A stretch of DNA of 48,354 nucleotides, from positions 1-48,354 of the forward strand of contig JAHDSB010000142.1 in the NCBI GenBank assembly GCA_018433015.1, in the 5' to 3' direction. The notes under the pieces are model-generated. The model did no database searches and was not told the origin of the DNA. It worked only from the letters and a program-made list of their open reading frames with translations. Both the position numbers and the translations under genes were made by a program. The stretch comes from Clostridia bacterium (GTDB lineage Bacteria; Bacillota; Peptococcia; DRI-13; SV3-B141). This document shows positions 1 to 12,176 of the stretch, one piece after another; the first letter of the stretch is position 1, and each line of letters starts with the position of its first letter.

Positions 1-566
1 CCCCAAACAACCATCCAAAATTTAGACAATACATATTGACCGGGATACAAGGCTTCTAGAGTTGCAAAAGCAAGTAAAATCGTCCCCGAGGGAGGAATCA
101 TGGGTCCTAAAGAGCTGCTTGACATTTCTACCGTAGCCGCCAAATGTCGGGGAAATCCTGTCCTGATCATAGTAGGAATTGTAAACACCCCTGTGGAAGC
201 AACATTTCCCGGCCCTGTTCCCGATAAAGAAGCCATAAAAGTGCTGCCCAAAAGACTTACATAACCTGCTCCTCCTTTTATTCTGCCTACTAACGAAAGA
301 ATAACATTAATAATATCATTAATAACATTAGTTTTACTAAAGAGATATGCTAAAACTAAAAAGGCTACTATGGCATAAAAAAGAGTATTAGTAGAAGGCT
401 TTACTAATAAGGGTAGGAACTGATCATATTGACCTGTAACGGCAATCATTACTAAATATCCCATAAACATAGCTTCATAGACAGGTCTTTTATAAATCAC
501 AAACACAATCAAAATTGTCAGCAACAGAACTAATAAATACATAATTTCCACTGGAAGACTTCCCAT
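1..566 (-). CDS. TRAP-type transporter large permease (DctM-like), partial
   Basis: The coding sequence runs off the left edge; only the first 188 or so residues are present. It starts at ATG 566-564 behind a strong AAGGAGG ribosome site. The peptide is very hydrophobic with several membrane segments and carries the motifs SGTGPGNVASTGVFTIP and SSSSLGPMIPPSGT, which match the substrate-path loops of the DctM large subunit of TRAP transporters (Na+-driven, binding-protein-dependent uptake of organic acids). No DctP or DctQ partner is visible in the window; they may lie beyond the edge. It is on the same strand as the DUF4387/AtuA-like genes but separated by 259 bases and a strong hairpin, so co-transcription is uncertain. 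A fused or UIT-type permease is an alternative. Confidence 0.7.
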   Translation of the reverse strand, partial: MGSLPVEIMYLLVLLLTILIVFVIYKRPVYEAMFMGYLVMIAVTGQYDQFLPLLVKPSTNTLFYAIVAFLVLAYLFSKTNVINDIINVILSLVGRIKGGAGYVSLLGSTFMASLSGTGPGNVASTGVFTIPTMIRTGFPRHLAATVEMSSSSLGPMIPPSGTILLAFATLEALYPGQYVLSKFWMVVW

Positions 567-825: not shown

Positions 826-1149
826 TTATTTAATTGGTATTTCTACATCTAATAAAGGCGGGTACTGCTGACAGCCAAAGATATCACTCTCTCCCGGACT
901 ACCGCTGGGTTTTTTCCGGAAAATAGTAAACTTTATAGCATAAGCAGGGTCAAATTCTACAAAATCAGCAATATCTTTTTCTTTAATATTGAAAAGGGAG
1001 CAAATTAGCTTATTATTTAACACCCCGCTATTCTTTACCAACTCGTAATTTTCTTTTTCCCTAAAGATAATGTCAAAAGTAATTTTATCTGTCCCTGCAT
1101 TTTTACTGCGAATAGTTTTCGCCAAATCAGCAAGTTTTTTTGTTTTCAT
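826..1149 (-). CDS. DUF4387 family protein
   Basis: A 107-residue soluble protein. The pattern LADLAKTIRSKNAGTDKITFDIIF near the start, FDPAYAIKFTIFR in the middle and PSGSPGESDIFGCQQYPPLLDVEIP at the end match the DUF4387 family as I know it. Family members are usually encoded beside AtuA/DUF1446 proteins, as here, where the gene starts 14 bases after the AtuA-like stop with a GGGAGG ribosome site. That tight pairing suggests the two polypeptides form one enzyme or complex; some homologues carry both domains on one chain. The biochemical role is not established to my knowledge. Length is normal and no defect is seen. Confidence 0.85.
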   Translation of the reverse strand: MKTKKLADLAKTIRSKNAGTDKITFDIIFREKENYELVKNSGVLNNKLICSLFNIKEKDIADFVEFDPAYAIKFTIFRKKPSGSPGESDIFGCQQYPPLLDVEIPIK

Positions 1150-1163
1150 TTTTCTATCCTCCC

Positions 1164-2528
1164 TTATCCAATCTCCATCATATTAACTTTAAACAGTTCC
1201 ATCGGATCATCGACAGCAACAGTGTGATCCAAAGTCCAAGTATAAGCCGGAGTAGCTCTAATAACTTCATCTAAAACAAAGGCTACTGAGCCGGCCGTGC
1301 CTTTAACTTCCGGCAAACGAGCATAAAACATTTGACGAGTACCTGTCATAGTTATTTCTTCCGCCATTTGTGCCGTAGGAGCAACTCCTTCTACGATGAC
1401 ACACAATTCATGGGATTTTATTTCTCTAACAGGCTCCAAATCACCCATGACTCCGTTCTTGCCATACACTAAATAATTCAGAAGATAACCTTCATCACCA
1501 TAGATATCTTTAACTTGACTTTTAGCCCAATCAATAACTTTATCAATATTCTTAATAGTATAAGGATCTCTGATACCAGCTATCCCAATATAACGTTCCC
1601 CAACTTTTCCGGACCCTTCTAATTTCACCTTTACTTTTCCCTCTACGGGAATAAACTTAGACCCCGTGATACGACAAGTTTTTTCATCATACTGTTCATA
1701 TACACATTGGGACATGTCCAGCATCCCACCGGCCACATATTCATAGAAAGGATTACTTCTCTCATACATGGCATGACCTGCTACAGAAGCAACAGTACAT
1801 CTTTGCTGGGGATGCATAGCTTTAACTTTTACATCCTGTTCAGTGATTGTGCCCAATACTGATTCCTTTCCACCGTAGGGTTCCGCGCAGAAGGAAGCAC
1901 ATTCCAGAACTTTACCTAAATAGTAAGCTAAATCAGGGGAATGTCCATGGTACAGGGCAGGAGCTGCAAATACTGCCACATCACTACAGCGACCACCTAT
2001 AATAACATCTGCTCCCATTTCTAATAATTTCAAATAAGGATGAACTCCTGCCACTCCGACGATTCTGTCGGTCTTCTCCAGCTCAGCTTTAGTTAAATTA
2101 GCTCTGCCATCTAGACCTTCGATCTCCACCCCTGCTTCTATTTTCTTAAAAAGATACTCTTTATCTACTTCTGAGTAGAAATACCCTAATTTAAACTTAG
2201 GCAGCTTATGTTTTTTAGCTAAATCTTTGATAATTTCTACATACATATCCACCTTACTATTTGTTCCTGTATCCCCTGCAGAGCCAATAATCATAGGTAC
2301 GCCTAACTTGCGTGCTTCTACTAACATTATTTCTAAATCATGGGTTTGGGTAGATTTCAAACTGGTACAAATGTCTGCCCCCAGGGGTACGGGACCGATG
2401 TCATCACTGCCAGAATCGCACAAGATAAAATCTGGCTTTTCTTTAACCCCTAAGTAATAACTTTCCTCCTTAGTAGGGGCGAATCCTAAGTGCCCATTAG
2501 GACAAAGAAATTTTAACTCCTTCTTCAT
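1164..2528 (-). CDS. AtuA-like (DUF1446) acyclic terpene utilization family protein
   Basis: A 454-residue protein starting MKKELKFLCPNGHLGF, with the family hallmarks DFILCDSGSDDIGPVPLGAD near residue 35, IGSAGDTGTNSKVD near 80, and ADVIIGGRCSDVAVFAAPAL near 175. AtuA was named from acyclic terpene (citronellol/geraniol) degradation in Pseudomonas, but most family members lie in unrelated catabolic loci and their reaction is unknown, so the name should not be read as a terpene function here. The partner DUF4387 gene follows 14 bases later. Upstream are a symporter and a candidate GntR operator at 2560-2579. Start ATG 2528 has an AAGGAG ribosome site. I infer a carboxylate or CoA-linked substrate imported by the adjacent transporters, without direct proof. 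Confidence 0.85.
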   Translation of the reverse strand: MKKELKFLCPNGHLGFAPTKEESYYLGVKEKPDFILCDSGSDDIGPVPLGADICTSLKSTQTHDLEIMLVEARKLGVPMIIGSAGDTGTNSKVDMYVEIIKDLAKKHKLPKFKLGYFYSEVDKEYLFKKIEAGVEIEGLDGRANLTKAELEKTDRIVGVAGVHPYLKLLEMGADVIIGGRCSDVAVFAAPALYHGHSPDLAYYLGKVLECASFCAEPYGGKESVLGTITEQDVKVKAMHPQQRCTVASVAGHAMYERSNPFYEYVAGGMLDMSQCVYEQYDEKTCRITGSKFIPVEGKVKVKLEGSGKVGERYIGIAGIRDPYTIKNIDKVIDWAKSQVKDIYGDEGYLLNYLVYGKNGVMGDLEPVREIKSHELCVIVEGVAPTAQMAEEITMTGTRQMFYARLPEVKGTAGSVAFVLDEVIRATPAYTWTLDHTVAVDDPMELFKVNMMEIG

Positions 2529-2559: not shown

Positions 2560-2579
2560 ATGTTATTACATGTTATTAC
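2560..2579. promoter_or_regulatory. Candidate GntR operator upstream of atuA-like
   Basis: Two tandem copies of the 10-base word ATGTTATTAC lie in the 68-base gap between the symporter stop and the AtuA-like start. Each embeds GT-N4-AC, the core spacing of many GntR/HutC-type operators. The same 16 bases TGTTATTACATGTTAT recur at 4064-4079 beside the regulator gene. The position suggests a second, internal control point in the operon. Confidence 0.55.
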
Positions 2580-2596
2580 CATCAAGAGTAAAAAAA

Positions 2597-4018
2597 TTAC
2601 AAGGGTACATTATCTACATTACTTTTCTTTCTTTTGAAAGACATTTCTACCAAACTAAACATAACGGTACTAATAGCAGCAACTATAACAGAAGCATAAG
2701 TTTCTGATAACCAGGGATGAATAGGATACTGCCCGAATATGGCTTTATAAACAACCCAATATAAACCCACTAAACTAGTAAGTAACATGGCACTAATAGC
2801 ACCTTTAGGTGTAGTATATCTCCAATATATCCCGAAAAGCAGCACAACAAACAATGATCCTCGAATAGTGTAGGCAAAATAAACTATATCTAATATTCTA
2901 GTCCCACCGTATAAAAGCATAGCCAAAACTATACAAGTAATACCGGCTAAGCCAGTCATTAAGCGGGACATCTTTAATATTTCTTGGTCTGTAGCTTGAG
3001 GTTTTATAATACGCTGATAAATATCTTTAGTAACCATGGTACCCGCTGCAAGTATAATGGGAGCTATTGTTGATAAGATAGCGGCTAAAATAGCGGCTAA
3101 TACAAGCCCTCCTGCCCCCGGCTGCAAAGTCATCATTAAAGTGGGAAGAGCCAGCTTAGCATTAGTTAATTCAGGAAAATTAACTCTGGCCATCATCCCT
3201 AAGAGAGCAGTCAAGATTCCAAAGGGCGCTACCACCAGAGCAGTAATAAAGGCGGCTTTTTTCGCAACTTTTACATCTTTAGCGGCAAGTATTGGCTGAA
3301 TGCCGGCTTGGGCTGTACAAGCCCCTAAAATAGAAGCGACTATCCACGAAGATACCTTAATTTTTCCGATACTAAACCAATTAAAGTAAGGTTCCTTAGG
3401 CATAATATTAAGAATATTATCAATACCACCTATATTATTACTCGATAATATTAAAGCTAAGATTATGCCTCCATACATAAATATTAGGTGGAGTATATTT
3501 GTATACCCCACGGCCGTCATTCCTCCCGCCAAGGTATAAATAATGAACCCAACTCCCAAGATAACAACTGCCGAATAATAATTGAGGCCTAATACACTCA
3601 CTCCTAAAGTCCCTGCTGCTATAATTTGGGCAGTACCAACTGCTATCATCACAAAAGTTAATAAAACACTAGAAACAACCCGCGCATTTACACCTACATA
3701 CTTTTCAATTATACCCGGGACAGTTACAGTTTCTAAACTTCTATACAACTTGGCAAAAAACAAAGCTAGCACTATTACCCCTATAGAATTGGCTACAGTA
3801 TACCAAGCTCCCGAGAGCCCATATAAATAACCGTACTCTGATACTCCTGTTGTGGCAGTTCCTCCCAACCATTCTCCCGTCCCTGCGGCAACACACATTA
3901 AAATGCCAAGGTTAGCCCCATGAAAAGCACTGGCAGAATTAGCTTTTCTTTTAGCATATAGACCTATGACAACTGTTACTGCAAAATAAAGAATGATTAT
4001 TACCAGTTGTAGCGACAA
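2597..4018 (-). CDS. Sodium:solute symporter (SSS family)
   Basis: A 473-residue integral membrane protein with about 13 predicted hydrophobic segments. The N-terminal IILYFAVTVVIGLYAKRKA, the AGTGEWLGGTATTGVSEYGYLYGLSGAWY segment and LAAILAAILSTIAPIILAAGTMVTKDIYQ later in the chain are typical of the SSS (solute:sodium symporter) family, which imports organic acids, amino acids, sugars or vitamins with Na+. Substrate cannot be read from the sequence; co-localisation with AtuA-like and DUF4387 genes suggests it supplies their substrate. Translation starts at TTG 4018, five bases after GGGAGGTG. The promoter and candidate operator at 4064-4107 lie directly upstream, divergent to the GntR gene. 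The C-terminus is short and basic. Confidence 0.9.
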   Translation of the reverse strand: MSLQLVIIILYFAVTVVIGLYAKRKANSASAFHGANLGILMCVAAGTGEWLGGTATTGVSEYGYLYGLSGAWYTVANSIGVIVLALFFAKLYRSLETVTVPGIIEKYVGVNARVVSSVLLTFVMIAVGTAQIIAAGTLGVSVLGLNYYSAVVILGVGFIIYTLAGGMTAVGYTNILHLIFMYGGIILALILSSNNIGGIDNILNIMPKEPYFNWFSIGKIKVSSWIVASILGACTAQAGIQPILAAKDVKVAKKAAFITALVVAPFGILTALLGMMARVNFPELTNAKLALPTLMMTLQPGAGGLVLAAILAAILSTIAPIILAAGTMVTKDIYQRIIKPQATDQEILKMSRLMTGLAGITCIVLAMLLYGGTRILDIVYFAYTIRGSLFVVLLFGIYWRYTTPKGAISAMLLTSLVGLYWVVYKAIFGQYPIHPWLSETYASVIVAAISTVMFSLVEMSFKRKKSNVDNVPL

Positions 4019-4063
4019 CCAATCACCTCCCTTTTAAGTTTTTATTTTATACTCATTATAACT

Positions 4064-4079
4064 TGTTATTACATGTTAT
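4064..4079. promoter_or_regulatory. Candidate GntR operator between symporter and gntR
   Basis: TGTTATTACATGTTAT, identical to 2561-2576. It includes TGTTATTACA, an imperfect palindrome with GT-N4-AC spacing, and overlaps the likely start of symporter transcription. In the divergent intergenic region it could also serve autoregulation of the GntR gene. Confidence 0.6.
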
Positions 4080-4107
4080 ATTATATAGGTAAATATCATT
4101 TTGTAAA
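4080..4107 (-). promoter_or_regulatory. Promoter of symporter-AtuA-like operon
   Basis: On the minus strand TTTACA (4107-4102), a 16-base spacer and TATAAT (4085-4080) form a good sigma-A type promoter. The candidate operator 4064-4079 abuts the -10 box on its downstream side, which is the position expected for repression by the divergently encoded GntR protein. Confidence 0.6.
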
Positions 4108-4269
4108 GTACTTTTGGTAAAAAGTTATATATTCTTTATATTAATAACAACTAATATTAATGAATCCTCACCACTACTTGACACCAAATTGTTCTTAGTA
4201 GTATTGTTAGTTAAAGAATCGCCATAAGGAAGGTGTTTTGAACTGATTAAGGAATTAGATAAAAACTCA

Positions 4270-4998
4270 TTGCCTTTACACTTACAATTAAAAAAAATAA
4301 TCAAAAAAAAGATAAAAGAAGGTCTCCTAAAACCAGGAGAAAAGTTACCCTCCGAACGGGAACTCTGTGAAAAATATGGAATAAGCCGTATCACCGTGCG
4401 GCAAGCCTTAGGAGCCCTCAGTAACGAAGGGCTAATCTTTAGTTCCCACGGGAAAGGAAGTTTTGTAGCTCAAAATAAAGTGGAACAGGAATTGCTTTCT
4501 ATAACTCCTTTCCAAAACTTCATCTTAAGCAAGGGGTTAAAACCCGGCACCAAGTATATTAGCTGCAACTTCATCCCCAATTCATATCAATTAAGTAAAA
4601 TCCTCAATGTTCCTCTTTCTGATAATCTAATGGAACTTACATTAATCGGGCTTGGTAATGATCAACCCATGGCCCTGTATCAGAGTTATTTTCCTGGTGA
4701 ACTGGGGGAAAAAATGCAAAAATTAGCACAAAAGTTTTCCCAAGATGAGAAACCCTTTACTACACTAGATCTGTATAAACATATACCGGACGTAACTTTA
4801 GGCGTCATTAACCAAACCTTTGAAGCTTCCCTGGCTGACTTAGATATTGCTAAAAAACTAAATATTAAAAAGGGAAGCCCCATCTTAATCGTGGAGTCAA
4901 TAATATATTCTTCCGATGATCAGCCCTTAGAATATAAAAATACTATTTATAGGGGAGATAAATATAAATTTTCCATAGTCCGCAAACCTACTTATTAA
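4270..4998 (+). CDS. GntR family regulator with UTRA effector domain
   Basis: About 242 residues. The N-terminal winged helix (LKPGEKLPSERELCEKYGIS then ITVRQALGALSNEGLI) is the standard GntR DNA-binding fold, and residues from about 80 to the end form a UTRA (HutC-type) ligand-binding domain. It is the only plus-strand gene in this region and is divergent from the symporter operon, so it is the likely local regulator, responding to the transported compound or a derivative. The start is unclear: TTG 4270 is used here, but the AAGGAAGG site at 4226-4233 is better spaced for CTG 4243, which would add nine residues (starting M-IKELDKNS) and restore the usual family N-terminus. A strong terminator follows the stop codon. 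Confidence 0.85.
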   Translation: MPLHLQLKKIIKKKIKEGLLKPGEKLPSERELCEKYGISRITVRQALGALSNEGLIFSSHGKGSFVAQNKVEQELLSITPFQNFILSKGLKPGTKYISCNFIPNSYQLSKILNVPLSDNLMELTLIGLGNDQPMALYQSYFPGELGEKMQKLAQKFSQDEKPFTTLDLYKHIPDVTLGVINQTFEASLADLDIAKKLNIKKGSPILIVESIIYSSDDQPLEYKNTIYRGDKYKFSIVRKPTY

Positions 4999-5080: not shown

Positions 5081-6379
<1,299 letters not shown>

Positions 6380-6461
6380 TTACAATTTAATCTCTTATTT
6401 AGCTTTTGCCAAAAACTACTTACTAGCTATCATCTAATATACCACAAACAAGCTCTTTTGT

Positions 6462-8015
6462 TTAATCACTTTTCTTCACAAGCAAACTCTCGCCCGTCAT
6501 TTCTTGTGGTTTAGCTAGATTAAGCAAATCTAAAAGAGTTGGGGCTATATCTTGTAAAGCACCCTTTTCCCGTAACTCAAACTCGTTTTTATCTGTACTT
6601 ACTAGTAAAGCTGGAACTAAATTGGAAGTATGAGCAGTATGGGGTTGTTGGGTCTGACAGTCCAACATACATTCAGCATTCCCGTGATCAGCAGTTATAA
6701 AAAGAACACCATCTTGTTCCAAAACAGCCTTAACTACACTTTCCATACAGCTATCTATAGTTTCAATAGCTTTAACACAAGCCGTAATTTGTCCCGTATG
6801 GCCCACCATATCCGGATTAGCGTAATTCAACACTATAAGATCATATTTATTTTCCCGGATTTTTTCTATTACTTTATTAGTAACTTGGCAAGCGCTCATT
6901 TCCGGCTGCAAATTATAAGTTGCTACTTTAGGAGAATTAATAAGGACTCTGTCCTCACCCTCATAAGCTTCCTCAATACCACCATTAAAAAAGAAAGTCA
7001 CATGAGCATATTTTTCCGTTTCCGCTATCCGCAGCTGCTTCAATTCTGCAGCACTAACAACTTCCCCCAAGGTATTGTCTAAGTTCTGAGGAGGATAAGC
7101 TACAGGGGCATGGATAGTTACATCGTACTGGGTAAAACAAACATAGTGCAAATTGAGATAACCCCCGGGCCTAGTAAAGTTCTGGAATTCTTGGTCCGTG
7201 AAGGCATGAGAAATCTGTCTAGCCCGATCAGCTCGGAAATTAAACATGATCACCACATCGCCCTTGCCAATCTTTCCTACCGGTGCTCCCTGATCATCTA
7301 CAATTACCGTAGGTTCCACAAATTCATCAGTTACTTTTAGATTGTAAGATCTTTCTAAAGCCTCCATAGCCAGGTTAGCCTTCATCCCCTCGCCGGCAAC
7401 CATGGCACGATAGCCTTTTTCTACTCTGTCCCAACGTTTATCCCTATCCATGGTATAATAACGTCCCGCAACCGTAGCAATTTTACCTACTCCCAGGGAT
7501 TTTAATTTCTTCTCCAGTTCCACTATATATTCTTTGGCACTGGCAGGAGGTACATCCCGCCCATCTAAAATAATATGTATAAATATCTTCCGTAAGCCCT
7601 TATCCTTAGCCATATCTAATAGTGCCATGAGATGATCTAGATGACTGTGCACACCTCCATCGGAGAGAAGCCCCAATAAATGCAAGGGTTTATCTTCCTC
7701 TAAAGCCTTATCCATGGTTTCCACCAAAACCCGATTTTCCCGGATTTTCCCCTGGCGCACATCTCTATTGATCCGTGTCAGTTCCTGATAAACAACACGT
7801 CCTGCACCGATATTCAAATGTCCCACTTCCGAATTGCCCATTTGCCCTTGCGGCAAACCCACAGCTTCTCCGGAAGCTTCCAATACTGCATGGGGATATT
7901 CCTTTACCAAGCGGTCATAAAAGGGCTTTCGAGCCTGGGCAATGGCATTTCCTTCTGTGGTTTCAGATATTCCCCAGCCATCCAAGATCATTAGCATTAT
8001 AGGTTTCTTAGTCAT
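6462..8015 (-). CDS. gpmI: 2,3-bisphosphoglycerate-independent phosphoglycerate mutase
   Basis: Encodes a 517-residue Mn2+-dependent mutase converting 3-phosphoglycerate to 2-phosphoglycerate. MLMILDGWGIS near the N-terminus and MGNSEVGHLNIGAGR (catalytic serine loop) are diagnostic, with metal ligands in FITADHGNAECM near the C-terminus. The reading frame is open nine codons further upstream, but ATG 8015 has AGGAGGA at ideal spacing and gives the family's normal MTKKPIMLMILDG start, so I prefer it. It begins 14 bases after the tpiA stop, inside the cggR-to-eno operon. Spore formers depend on this pH-sensitive isoform to hold a 3-phosphoglycerate pool in spores; that point is family knowledge. 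Confidence 0.97.
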   Translation of the reverse strand: MTKKPIMLMILDGWGISETTEGNAIAQARKPFYDRLVKEYPHAVLEASGEAVGLPQGQMGNSEVGHLNIGAGRVVYQELTRINRDVRQGKIRENRVLVETMDKALEEDKPLHLLGLLSDGGVHSHLDHLMALLDMAKDKGLRKIFIHIILDGRDVPPASAKEYIVELEKKLKSLGVGKIATVAGRYYTMDRDKRWDRVEKGYRAMVAGEGMKANLAMEALERSYNLKVTDEFVEPTVIVDDQGAPVGKIGKGDVVIMFNFRADRARQISHAFTDQEFQNFTRPGGYLNLHYVCFTQYDVTIHAPVAYPPQNLDNTLGEVVSAAELKQLRIAETEKYAHVTFFFNGGIEEAYEGEDRVLINSPKVATYNLQPEMSACQVTNKVIEKIRENKYDLIVLNYANPDMVGHTGQITACVKAIETIDSCMESVVKAVLEQDGVLFITADHGNAECMLDCQTQQPHTAHTSNLVPALLVSTDKNEFELREKGALQDIAPTLLDLLNLAKPQEMTGESLLVKKSD

Positions 8016-8029
8016 TTGCTTCCTCCTAT

Positions 8030-8800
8030 TTAACATCCACAAACCTCAGCAGCACTTTTTACAATACTATAAAAAGAATCTGCCTTGAGGCTGGCTCCAC
8101 CGATTAAAGCTCCATCAATGTTAGCTTGTTTGAAATAATCTACAGCATTGTTAGGTTTAACGCTGCCGCCATATTGAATACGTATTTTGTCGCCGATTTC
8201 CGTCCCATATTTAGCACTGATACATTGCCGTACAAAGGTAATAGTACTATCGGCATCCTCTACACTGGCATTGACCCCGGTACCAATAGCCCATACGGGT
8301 TCATAAGCAATGACTATTTGGTCCATTTCTTTAGCTGTTATATCTTGCAAAGACCCGAAAATCTGAGTTTTACAAATCTCTTCCATCTTACCTGCTTGTC
8401 TTTCTTCCAACGTTTCACCTATACAAAGAATGGGCTTTAACCCGTGGACAAGGGCGGCCTTAACTTTTTTATTTATCAGCTCATTACTTTCTTGGAAGAT
8501 ATGACGTCTCTCAGAATGTCCCAGAATAACATAAGTACATCCCAAGTCCTTTAACATCGCCGGGGATATTTCCCCTGTATAAGCTCCCTTATCTTCATAA
8601 TACATGTTTTGAGCACCTAACTTAACTCCTGTGCCTTCCAAGCCTTTACTCACTGCTTGTAAACAAGTAAAAGGTGTACAAACAACAACTTCCACCTTCT
8701 TATATAATTCTGCATCGCCCGGAAGATCCGCTGTAAAACTTTCAGCTTCTCCCACTGTTTTATTCATCTTCCAGTTGGCAGCAACAATCGGAACACGCAT
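8030..8800 (-). CDS. tpiA: Triosephosphate isomerase
   Basis: A 256-residue TIM barrel interconverting dihydroxyacetone phosphate and glyceraldehyde 3-phosphate. Evidence: VAANWKMNKT near the start (catalytic Lys), YVILGHSERR (catalytic His near residue 96), VIAYEPVWAIGTG (catalytic Glu followed by the flexible loop) and the phosphate-binding IQYGGSVKPNNA and GALIGGASLK. It starts 14 bases after the pgk stop and is followed closely by gpmI, so it is translated from the same operon mRNA. Nothing unusual in length or composition. Confidence 0.98.
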   Translation of the reverse strand: MRVPIVAANWKMNKTVGEAESFTADLPGDAELYKKVEVVVCTPFTCLQAVSKGLEGTGVKLGAQNMYYEDKGAYTGEISPAMLKDLGCTYVILGHSERRHIFQESNELINKKVKAALVHGLKPILCIGETLEERQAGKMEEICKTQIFGSLQDITAKEMDQIVIAYEPVWAIGTGVNASVEDADSTITFVRQCISAKYGTEIGDKIRIQYGGSVKPNNAVDYFKQANIDGALIGGASLKADSFYSIVKSAAEVCGC

Positions 8801-8814
8801 CTCACTCTTCCCCC

Positions 8815-9996
8815 TTATCGATCCTGTAAAGCTACTATCCCAGGCAAGGACTTGCCTTCTAAAAATTCCAGAGAGGCTCCTCCTCCGGTGGAAATATGAT
8901 AAATTTTCTCGGCTACACCGGCCTTTTCCACAGCCGCTACTACATCTCCTCCGCCAATTATTGTCTTGGCTTCAGCTTCAGCAACTATACGAGCCGTCTC
9001 ATTTGTTCCCGCAGCAAATTTAGGGAACTCATATACACCTAGTGGTCCATTCCACACGATGGTCTTAGCTTTATTTATTACTTCTGCAAAAACCTTTAGA
9101 GTAGCAGGTCCCAAATCCAAGGCCATGGCCTGAGCCGGGATATTATTAACATCCACAACCTGGGACGAAGCATCCTCCGCAAATTTATCGGCCGCTACCA
9201 CGTCTACCGGTAAGATCACTTCAGCCCCAGAAGTTTTAGCTTCTGCTAAAATCTCTTGAGCCACCTCAAGTTTCTCCGGTTCAATCAAGGATTTACCCGT
9301 TTCATAGCCTGCTGCCTTTAGGAAGGTATTAGCCATGCCTCCGCCTACCAATAGATAATCTACCTTACCCAGAAGATTTTGCATCACAGAAATTTTATCT
9401 GATACTTTAGCTCCTCCTAATATAGCGGCAAAAGGCTTTTGAGGATTACCTACAGCACTGGATAAAGCTTCGATTTCTTTTTCCATTAGAAATCCAGCTA
9501 CGGCGGGGAGATGATGGGCCACTCCTTCCGTAGAGGCATGAGCCCGGTGGGCAGTTCCAAAAGCATCATTCACATATAAATCAGCTAAACGGGCTAAAGC
9601 TTCGGCCATCTTAGGATCATTTTTCTCCTCTTCTGCATAAAAGCGAGCATTTTCTAAGAGTAAAACCTGCCCTTCTTTCATTTCCTCTGCTACTTGGCGA
9701 GAATCTTCTCCCCCACAATCCCGGGCATATAAAACCTCTTCTCCTAATAATTCGCTTAAATGTTCTACTATGGGTTTCACACTCATCTCCGGTACGACCT
9801 TGCCTTTAGGTCTGCCCAAATGTGTCACCAGAATAGTTTTTGCCTTCTGCTCCTGTAAGTACTTTATAGTAGGCAAAGCTTTTACCATCCTGGTATCATC
9901 GTTAATCTTACCGTCCTTCATAGGAACGTTAAAATCAACACGTACCAAGACCTTCTTTCCTGCCACATCAATATCACGCAGCGTTTTCTTATTCAT
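8815..9996 (-). CDS. pgk: Phosphoglycerate kinase
   Basis: A 393-residue kinase transferring phosphate from 1,3-bisphosphoglycerate to ADP. Recognised from KKVLVRVDFNVPMKDG at the N-terminus, the substrate-binding TILVTHLGRPKG, FAAILGGAKVSDKI in the hinge region and IVWNGPLGVYEFPKFAAGT plus the GGGDVVAAVEKAG nucleotide site in the C-lobe. It follows gap by 45 bases and precedes tpiA by 14. Start ATG 9996 is preceded by GAGGAGGG. In some bacteria pgk is fused to tpiA; here they are separate. Confidence 0.98.
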   Translation of the reverse strand: MNKKTLRDIDVAGKKVLVRVDFNVPMKDGKINDDTRMVKALPTIKYLQEQKAKTILVTHLGRPKGKVVPEMSVKPIVEHLSELLGEEVLYARDCGGEDSRQVAEEMKEGQVLLLENARFYAEEEKNDPKMAEALARLADLYVNDAFGTAHRAHASTEGVAHHLPAVAGFLMEKEIEALSSAVGNPQKPFAAILGGAKVSDKISVMQNLLGKVDYLLVGGGMANTFLKAAGYETGKSLIEPEKLEVAQEILAEAKTSGAEVILPVDVVAADKFAEDASSQVVDVNNIPAQAMALDLGPATLKVFAEVINKAKTIVWNGPLGVYEFPKFAAGTNETARIVAEAEAKTIIGGGDVVAAVEKAGVAEKIYHISTGGGASLEFLEGKSLPGIVALQDR

Positions 9997-10041
9997 CTTG
10001 CCAAAACCCTCCTCTTTCTGGAGAAAATTAAACCAATTTAA

Positions 10042-11094
<1,053 letters not shown>

Positions 11095-11132
11095 CTAAAC
11101 TACTCTCATTCACCCTGGTGTTTCTTATGACA

Positions 11133-12176
11133 TTATTCCTCAATTTGCTTTTTAATAACCTCGGCTGCTCCTTGATCCACAATCAAAACATCCACAAAAC
11201 TTGCTCTAAGCACAGACATAATGGCATCGGCCTTGCTCTTTCCTCCGGCAACAGCTACAACCATATCCAGCTTAGCTATATCTTCGACTTTTGGTCCTAC
11301 TGTAGGAGTAACTAGGGCTACGGAACCATCGGCTGCAAAATATGTTCCAAAGGCTTCTCCTACCGGTTCTTTTCGGGAATACCGCTGAATACTTTGCCAA
11401 TCTGAATCCCGTCGTAAAGCCATGACCTCAGGGATACCTATCCCATGAACTAATAAATTGGCTTTTTTGCTCAAATTTATAACTTCTTGCACTTTGTGAT
11501 CCGACAATAAAGGCTCTAAGGTCTCATTCTGTATACCATCGGGGACGTGTAGCAAACGATAAGAGGCTCCTAAACGCTGTGCTATTTCGGCAGCAATAGT
11601 GTTGGATTGTATCTCCACATCCTCACCTAACCCACCTCTTCCCGGAACTACCAAGACATCTTTTTTTCCTACCGTCTGGGGAATATTGTGGGCAACTTCT
11701 GCCATAGTCGTTCCACCTGTCACTGCTATGACCCACTGATCCTGAACAACATCCCGCAGAAAAGCACCTGAAGCTTGGCCCAGCTCATGTAAAATTTCAC
11801 AATTCTGATCTGCATCTCCCGGTACAATCACAACTTTAGTTAAATCAAGCTTTTGTGCCAGATAGTTTTCTAAAGGAGCTAACCCTTCAACTTTATGTAT
11901 TAATAGACTTAACTGGGGGAGCAGTTTTTTACCCTCCTCCGTTAAAGATACTCCGGCAGCATTAGATTCTAGTAAATTATGGTCTTTCAAAAAATCTATT
12001 TCACTGCGCACTCCTCTTTCTCCCAGAGCTAATCTCTCCGCTAAAAGGCGCCTACCAATGGGCTGATTATACTTGATAGTACGTAAAATAGTGTAGCGTT
12101 TTTGAAAAACAGGGAGCATTTCCGGAACTAATAATTTAAATAATAGCAATGAGTTATCAGTATTATTTTCTATCAA
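11133..12176 (-). CDS. cggR: Central glycolytic genes regulator CggR
   Basis: A 347-residue SorC/DeoR-family repressor. Residues about 20-90 form the winged helix (RYTILRTIKYNQPIGRRLLAERLALGERGVRSEIDFL), and the rest is a sugar-phosphate-binding domain with VTGGTTMAEVAHN and LVVPGRGGLGEDVEIQSN. In B. subtilis CggR is released from its operator by fructose-1,6-bisphosphate, so the gene and the operon downstream are induced by glycolytic flux. Being first in the operon and preceded by a matching operator at 12195-12230 supports autoregulation. It starts at TTG 12176 behind GGAGGAAA, a weak start that may keep repressor levels low. Confidence 0.95.
   Translation of the reverse strand: MIENNTDNSLLLFKLLVPEMLPVFQKRYTILRTIKYNQPIGRRLLAERLALGERGVRSEIDFLKDHNLLESNAAGVSLTEEGKKLLPQLSLLIHKVEGLAPLENYLAQKLDLTKVVIVPGDADQNCEILHELGQASGAFLRDVVQDQWVIAVTGGTTMAEVAHNIPQTVGKKDVLVVPGRGGLGEDVEIQSNTIAAEIAQRLGASYRLLHVPDGIQNETLEPLLSDHKVQEVINLSKKANLLVHGIGIPEVMALRRDSDWQSIQRYSRKEPVGEAFGTYFAADGSVALVTPTVGPKVEDIAKLDMVVAVAGGKSKADAIMSVLRASFVDVLIVDQGAAEVIKKQIEE

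Follow-up and report, generated by a model that had tools for sequence, protein, structure and literature searches.

GntR/HutC repressors, as presented in the available part of the survey by Suvorova et al. (2015, PMC4494728), combine a GntR and a UTRA domain, have palindromic sites in which GT and AC stand 4 nt apart, and are encoded divergently from their target operon. The regulator studied here shares these traits. According to the same part of the survey, most HutC-type sites, but not all, keep only the 4-nt spacing, and sites of other symmetry are listed. GntR-family sites are also described there as carrying weaker half-sites 7-12 nt from the centre, and position 39 of the HutC domain, most often Met, is tied to the two central bases of the site. 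Among solved structures, the nearest relative of our regulator is YvoA/NagR of Bacillus subtilis (PDB 4u0v and 2wv0, E-value 7.2e-42) and the next is DasR (2.5e-24), both with the same two-domain build.

The closest described enzyme is the citramalate lyase CmlA/CmlB (PDB 9erq and 9evf), and counterparts of both its subunits are adjacent in the operon studied here. The Pfam names of the two families, AtuA (DUF1446) and DUF4387, give no hint of this likeness. In the accessible part of PMC4682846, a DUF1446 gene of unknown function is reported to adjoin a methylaspartate ammonia-lyase gene in some bacteria.

Results

The window, i.e., the whole stretch of 48,354 nucleotides that was analysed, carries on its minus strand a sodium:solute symporter gene (2597..4018; Pfam SSF, 7.5e-46), an AtuA-family (DUF1446) gene related to CmlA (1164..2528; Pfam AtuA, 5e-20; PDB 9erq chain A, 7e-71) and a DUF4387 gene related to CmlB (826..1149; Pfam DUF4387, 2.3e-37; PDB 9erq chain B, 4.1e-22). 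The gene of a TRAP transporter large permease (DctM, 1..566, minus strand; Pfam DctM, 3e-29), cut by the window edge, is possibly the last gene of this operon. Taken with the matches to CmlA and CmlB, the presence of the symporter, AtuA, DUF4387 and TRAP permease genes leads us to propose that the operon probably serves to take up a small 2-hydroxy acid and cleave it. The enzyme would probably be a lyase of the CmlAB type that needs no CoA and uses a 2-hydroxy acid similar to citramalate; since the matches to both chains are distant, its substrate may differ from that of CmlA/CmlB.

The regulator gene, gntR (4243..4998), lies on the plus strand opposite the symporter gene, and is thus divergent, as stated in the sequence-only reading that preceded this analysis. 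Its product of 251 amino acids has the features of the HutC subfamily: an N-terminal GntR winged helix (PF00392, 1.9e-21) and a C-terminal UTRA domain (PF07702, 6.4e-24). Its putative operator, a palindrome with 4 nt between GT and AC (core GTTATAAC), fits this subfamily as well. Residue 50, in the recognition helix, is Ile. Translation probably starts at a CTG (4243); this codon stands after AAGGAAGG, and a CTG occurs at the matching place in G003, the nearest relative compared. The strict HutC centre, GTMTAKAC, is absent from the core (GTTATAAC/GTTATTAC), which has AT at its centre instead of TA. HutC, PhnF, TreR and the other named GntR/UTRA regulators share the domain build, and their profiles match the protein, but all these NCBIfam equivalogs score far below their cut-offs (e.g., 113.6 against 220 for TIGR02018), which indicates that the regulator is none of them. 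Adjoining the operon, positions 5081-12176 hold what we take, from the similarity of the translations, to be a glycolytic block (enolase, phosphoglycerate mutase, triosephosphate isomerase, phosphoglycerate kinase, GAPDH and a CggR-like regulator).

The word TGTTATTACATGTTAT occurs as exact copies at 2561-2576 (copy 1) and 4064-4079 (copy 2), where the sequence-only reading had placed them. Copy 1 is indeed just upstream of the atuA-like gene, 33-48 bp before its ATG (2528, minus strand). Copy 2 (plus strand) is found between the starts of the symporter gene (4018, minus strand) and of gntR (4243, plus strand). The GT-N4-AC spacing that had been pointed out in the word is present in GTTATTAC. 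When up to three mismatches were allowed, the window had five matches to the word, against a mean of 0.92 (maximum 3) in 100 shuffles. Among 20,000 shuffled versions of the gap pair (68 and 224 bp; dinucleotide shuffling), two had a common word of at least 16 bases, so the 16-base identity is unlikely to be fortuitous, in line with the earlier argument. The genome-wide scan that had been suggested as a check gave a divided answer. The exact word has no third copy in the 3.75-Mb genome. When up to two mismatches are tolerated, however, it has 8 matches and its reversed control 11, and the loose word is therefore not distinctive and makes a poor genome-wide marker on its own. These genome-wide counts rely on IUPAC patterns, and the motif matrix described below was applied to the window and the fetched loci. 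The lack of enrichment of the loose word speaks for a chance match between AT-rich spacers. We give this explanation almost no credence, given the rarity of 16 common bases in shuffled gap pairs and the fact that a motif learned elsewhere picks both places; for copy 2, chance is refuted by the held-out scan.

This motif was obtained from other genomes. A scan for homologues gave 66 loci, among which 64 (L032-L095) were used and two (L096 and L097) left out. The training set comprised, for each of 61 loci, 10 bp of the AtuA gene and the 300 bp that precede it. It excluded the window and G003, and three further loci (L086, L090 and L094) stayed outside because the AtuA start was absent. A motif search without prior pattern in the 61 regions returned the palindrome TAACTTGTTATAACAAGTTA, of 22 bits, with GT-N4-AC in its core. 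At a threshold of 13.5 bits, set after copy 1 had been seen at 13.7, there were 63 sites over 66 sources (the 64 loci, L098, which is the G003 locus, and 12 kb of the window; 725,707 bases). Intergenic sites numbered 52, whereas the intergenic share was 104,097 of the 725,707 bases, and the reversed matrix gave four matches, none of them intergenic. The typical site stands some 20-70 bp upstream of AtuA. Two of the loci counted, L052 and L088, are near copies of each other. Only the window, L098 and L112-L118 are independent of the training set, all others being in it or overlapping it; sites of at least 13.5 bits were found in four of seven held-out gntR-linked stretches. Upstream of AtuA in 20 distant relatives (L012-L031), left out of the counts, no site scored above 4.4 bits.

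Scanned with this held-out matrix, the 48-kb window has its top score at 4059-4078 (24.8 and 24.3 bits on the two strands), whereas the best score in 100 shuffled windows averaged 11.7 and peaked at 20.2; none of 5,000 shuffles of its gap reached the window score. This place, which we regard as the main operator, is a 20-bp imperfect palindrome, TAACTTGTTATTACATGTTA, with its GT-N4-AC core at 4065-4072, and it includes most of copy 2 as its right part. The result supports a redefinition of what had been described as a 16-nt word: the putative operator would be the 20-bp palindrome, of which the word misses the left 5 bp. The pattern TAACWTGTTATWACAWGTTA has a single match without mismatch in the whole genome, the main operator itself, and the other matches to the 20-mer, with two or three mismatches (L103, L105-L111), score at most 15.4 bits.

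The main operator adjoins a predicted promoter of the symporter operon (4080..4107, minus strand; -35 TTTACA at 4107-4102, a spacer of 16 nt, -10 TATAAT at 4085-4080), which matches the consensus at 11 of 12 positions, in a region where promoter-like sites are as numerous as in shuffles. The spacing from the predicted boxes places the expected transcription start at about 4073, within copy 2. The overlap with the symporter transcription start that had been claimed for the second copy thus agrees with the predicted promoter. The main operator begins 1 base downstream of the predicted -10 box and covers the expected start. The symporter start is 50 bp away from it and gntR about 175 bp, which makes autocontrol of gntR less certain. 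A promoter-like pair before gntR (4178..4207, plus strand; TTGACA, 18 nt, TATTGT) was identified by consensus match only.

The second-ranked place in the window, 2556-2585, scores 13.7 and 13.5 bits, and every other position at most 11.1. It includes copy 1 and has two GT-N4-AC cores 10 bp apart (2562-2569 and 2572-2579) with a degenerate left outer box. The held-out motif thus ranks first and second the two places at which the sequence-only reading had seen a GntR operator, but the copies are unequal (13.7 against 24.8 bits), and copy 1 appears to be the weaker and less certain site. We consider it a candidate secondary operator. There is a substantial, though smaller, chance that only copy 2 functions as an operator and that copy 1 is fortuitous or decayed and has no effect. 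Besides the difference in score, this is suggested by the poor promoter just upstream of copy 1, where the best match to the consensus is 9 of 12, and by the gap between symporter and AtuA in G003, which has no site at the place of copy 1 (best 0.6 bits). Yet copy 1 is the second best place in 48 kb, its score was reached in one of 5,000 shuffles of the 68-bp gap, and it is identical to copy 2 over 16 bases. Moreover, second sites exist in or between related operons: they precede a Peptidase_C26-DctM pair in four loci (L038, L040, L069 and L098) and stand near DctM in three (L036, L048 and L095). A second site in such a regulon would therefore not be odd.

Other features accompany these loci. 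Two strong sites about 150 bp apart are found upstream of AtuA in four related loci (L059, L060, L066 and L093), a spacing that could suit a DNA loop. Beside the operon there is often a gene for a Peptidase_C26 protein (gamma-glutamyl hydrolase-like) that has a site of its own (L098, positions 1236-2154; also L038, L040 and L069), which hints at a gamma-glutamyl compound in the pathway. Sites together with GntR also occur in records named Rhodospirillales, Streptomyces, Marinobacter and Cytobacillus (L062, L075, L079 and L095, respectively). Going by these names, the unit spans phyla, possibly by transfer.

The motif has outer TAAC/GTTA boxes 7-10 nt from the site centre. For 38 main sites, we scored every surrounding offset for the 8-bp core. 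An extra core occurs in 24% of the sites at offset -10 and in 29% at +10, and no other offset exceeds 8%; half of each extra core lies inside the 20 trained columns, and the mean scores at these two offsets are therefore partly built in. These extra cores allow the shared word to be read as one GT-N4-AC core plus the first half of the next. Given the weaker half-sites described in the part of PMC4494728 cited above, such 10-bp extra half-sites are of a known kind. The comparison with G003 had suggested a simple, non-palindromic tandem repeat; this was dropped, the motif of the 61 regions being a palindrome, while the cores phased at 10 bp stay.

The presence of sites follows that of the regulator. 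Of the 35 loci whose stretch includes a GntR-UTRA gene, 32 have a site of at least 13.5 bits upstream of AtuA; of the 28 whose stretch includes none, 11 do (63 loci, i.e., the 61 of the training set, the window and L098, with L099 dropped as a copy of L068). Fisher's test gives p = 2e-5 for this association, a value that overstates the evidence because the loci are related to each other. The three GntR-UTRA loci lacking such a site are L048, which has an 18.9-bit site before gntR/DctM instead, L098, whose site is at the symporter/gntR promoter and scores 13.4 bits, and L077, where the GntR is a poor match. We searched for the regulator in nine genomes, corresponding to seven of the 11 site-bearing loci without GntR plus L034 and L049. 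Orthologues were found in the genomes of L033, L065, L082, L084 and L087, with E-values of 7e-53 or better, and also in that of L042; the L035 genome gave only a distant match. In four cases (L033, L082, L084 and L087) the orthologue is encoded some 6-7 kb from AtuA, just beyond the stretch first fetched.

Four other matches counted among the 11 (L037, L045, L051 and L085; 14.1-17.5 bits) lie about 180-230 bp upstream of AtuA. We read these as false, since they are in coding sequence and belong to loci with a sigma-54 response regulator (among 11 of that cluster). Such a regulator is found near AtuA/DUF4387, with no GntR-UTRA gene seen in the stretch, in L037, L039, L041, L045, L047, L051, L057, L085 and L092. 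The alternation of sigma-54 response regulator and GntR-UTRA beside AtuA/DUF4387 is an apparent exchange of control system.

The centre of the site covaries with residue 50 of the regulator (SR-I-TVRQ). Among 34 linked regulators this residue is Ile in 32 and Thr in two (L054 and L063), and both Thr50 loci have a C in the site centre. From this we predicted, before reading the residues, a Thr50 orthologue in the genomes of L033, L035, L065, L082 and L087, where the sites are of the GTTACTAC type and the fetched stretch lacks a regulator gene. An orthologue turned up in four of these genomes (L033, L065, L082 and L087), each time with Thr50 as predicted. Thr50 is also present in L034 and L084, and the regulator of L042, whose site has an AT centre, has Ile50. 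Overall, at 13.5 bits or more, the Thr50 group has 17 sites, 11 of them with a centre that differs from AT, and the Ile50 group has 51, of which one has such a centre; the six AT-centred sites of the Thr50 group show that the covariation is not strict. Residue 50 aligns with the Met of SRMTVRQ in YvoA, and this alignment suggests that it corresponds to the position 39 mentioned above.

In Clostridia, the redox repressor Rex has the half-site TTGTTA, with several bases between the two half-sites. A palindrome bound by another regulator such as Rex, linked to GntR by neighbourhood only, would account for the TTGTTA half-site that the motif has in common with Rex sites, and AT-rich palindromes are frequent in such genomes. 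We nevertheless judge it very unlikely. The half-sites of the motif abut (TTGTTA-TAACAA, with GT-N4-AC; TTGTTATAACAA), unlike the spaced half-sites of Rex, the presence of the site follows the GntR group and its centre covaries with a residue of the GntR recognition helix, and the sigma-54 response-regulator loci without GntR have weak matches at most.

Discussion

We propose, with a probability of roughly 0.88, that the shared word marks operators of the divergent HutC-type GntR/UTRA repressor. A GntR dimer bound to the palindrome 4059-4078, over the start of the symporter-AtuA-DUF4387 operon, would hinder RNA polymerase, and the binding of an inducer to the UTRA domain would lift this block. 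We infer both repression and its relief from what the GntR family does. The compound taken up by the transporter, or one related to it, would probably act as the inducer. Each core is accompanied, 10 bp away and on the same helix face, by an outer half-site that would probably receive a second dimer or strengthen binding, possibly in a cooperative way. The weaker site before AtuA (2556-2585) may act as an auxiliary site of the same GntR.

A broader generalisation is more doubtful, and we put it forward tentatively. Operators of an unusual build, with a GT-N4-AC core every 10 bp, could allow a single group of HutC-type regulators to run lyase operons of the CmlAB type across several phyla; dimers would bind next to each other along one helix face, one recognition-helix residue (Ile50 or Thr50) would set the central bases, and a citramalate-like 2-hydroxy acid would be the inducer.

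These results provide a firm candidate operator, and with it a natural reporter, for the AtuA/DUF1446-DUF4387 pair, about whose role in the cell little is known. The identity of the compound that induces this GntR repressor would indicate what the pair acts on. The covariation of Ile50 and Thr50 with the site amounts to a small rule, open to testing, on the way in which a repressor of the HutC type recognises the middle of its operator.

Literature searches for DUF4387, PF07287, citramalate lyase with CmlA, and 9ERQ returned no relevant paper, and a search for the string TTGTTATAACAA returned nothing relevant by title. As far as these searches reach, we found the regulon undescribed, while this kind of repressor and operator is itself known. 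YvoA/NagR and DasR control other genes than this GntR, and their operator has a sequence different from TAACTTGTTATAACAAGTTA. The term "atuA" is absent from the main text of PMC4494728, the part of that survey available for this comparison. Relative to the sites in that text, ours differs in its sequence, TAACTTGTTATAACAAGTTA, and in its AtuA/DUF4387 targets; it resembles those of the GntR/HutC family described there in that one recognition-helix residue goes with the bases at the site centre.
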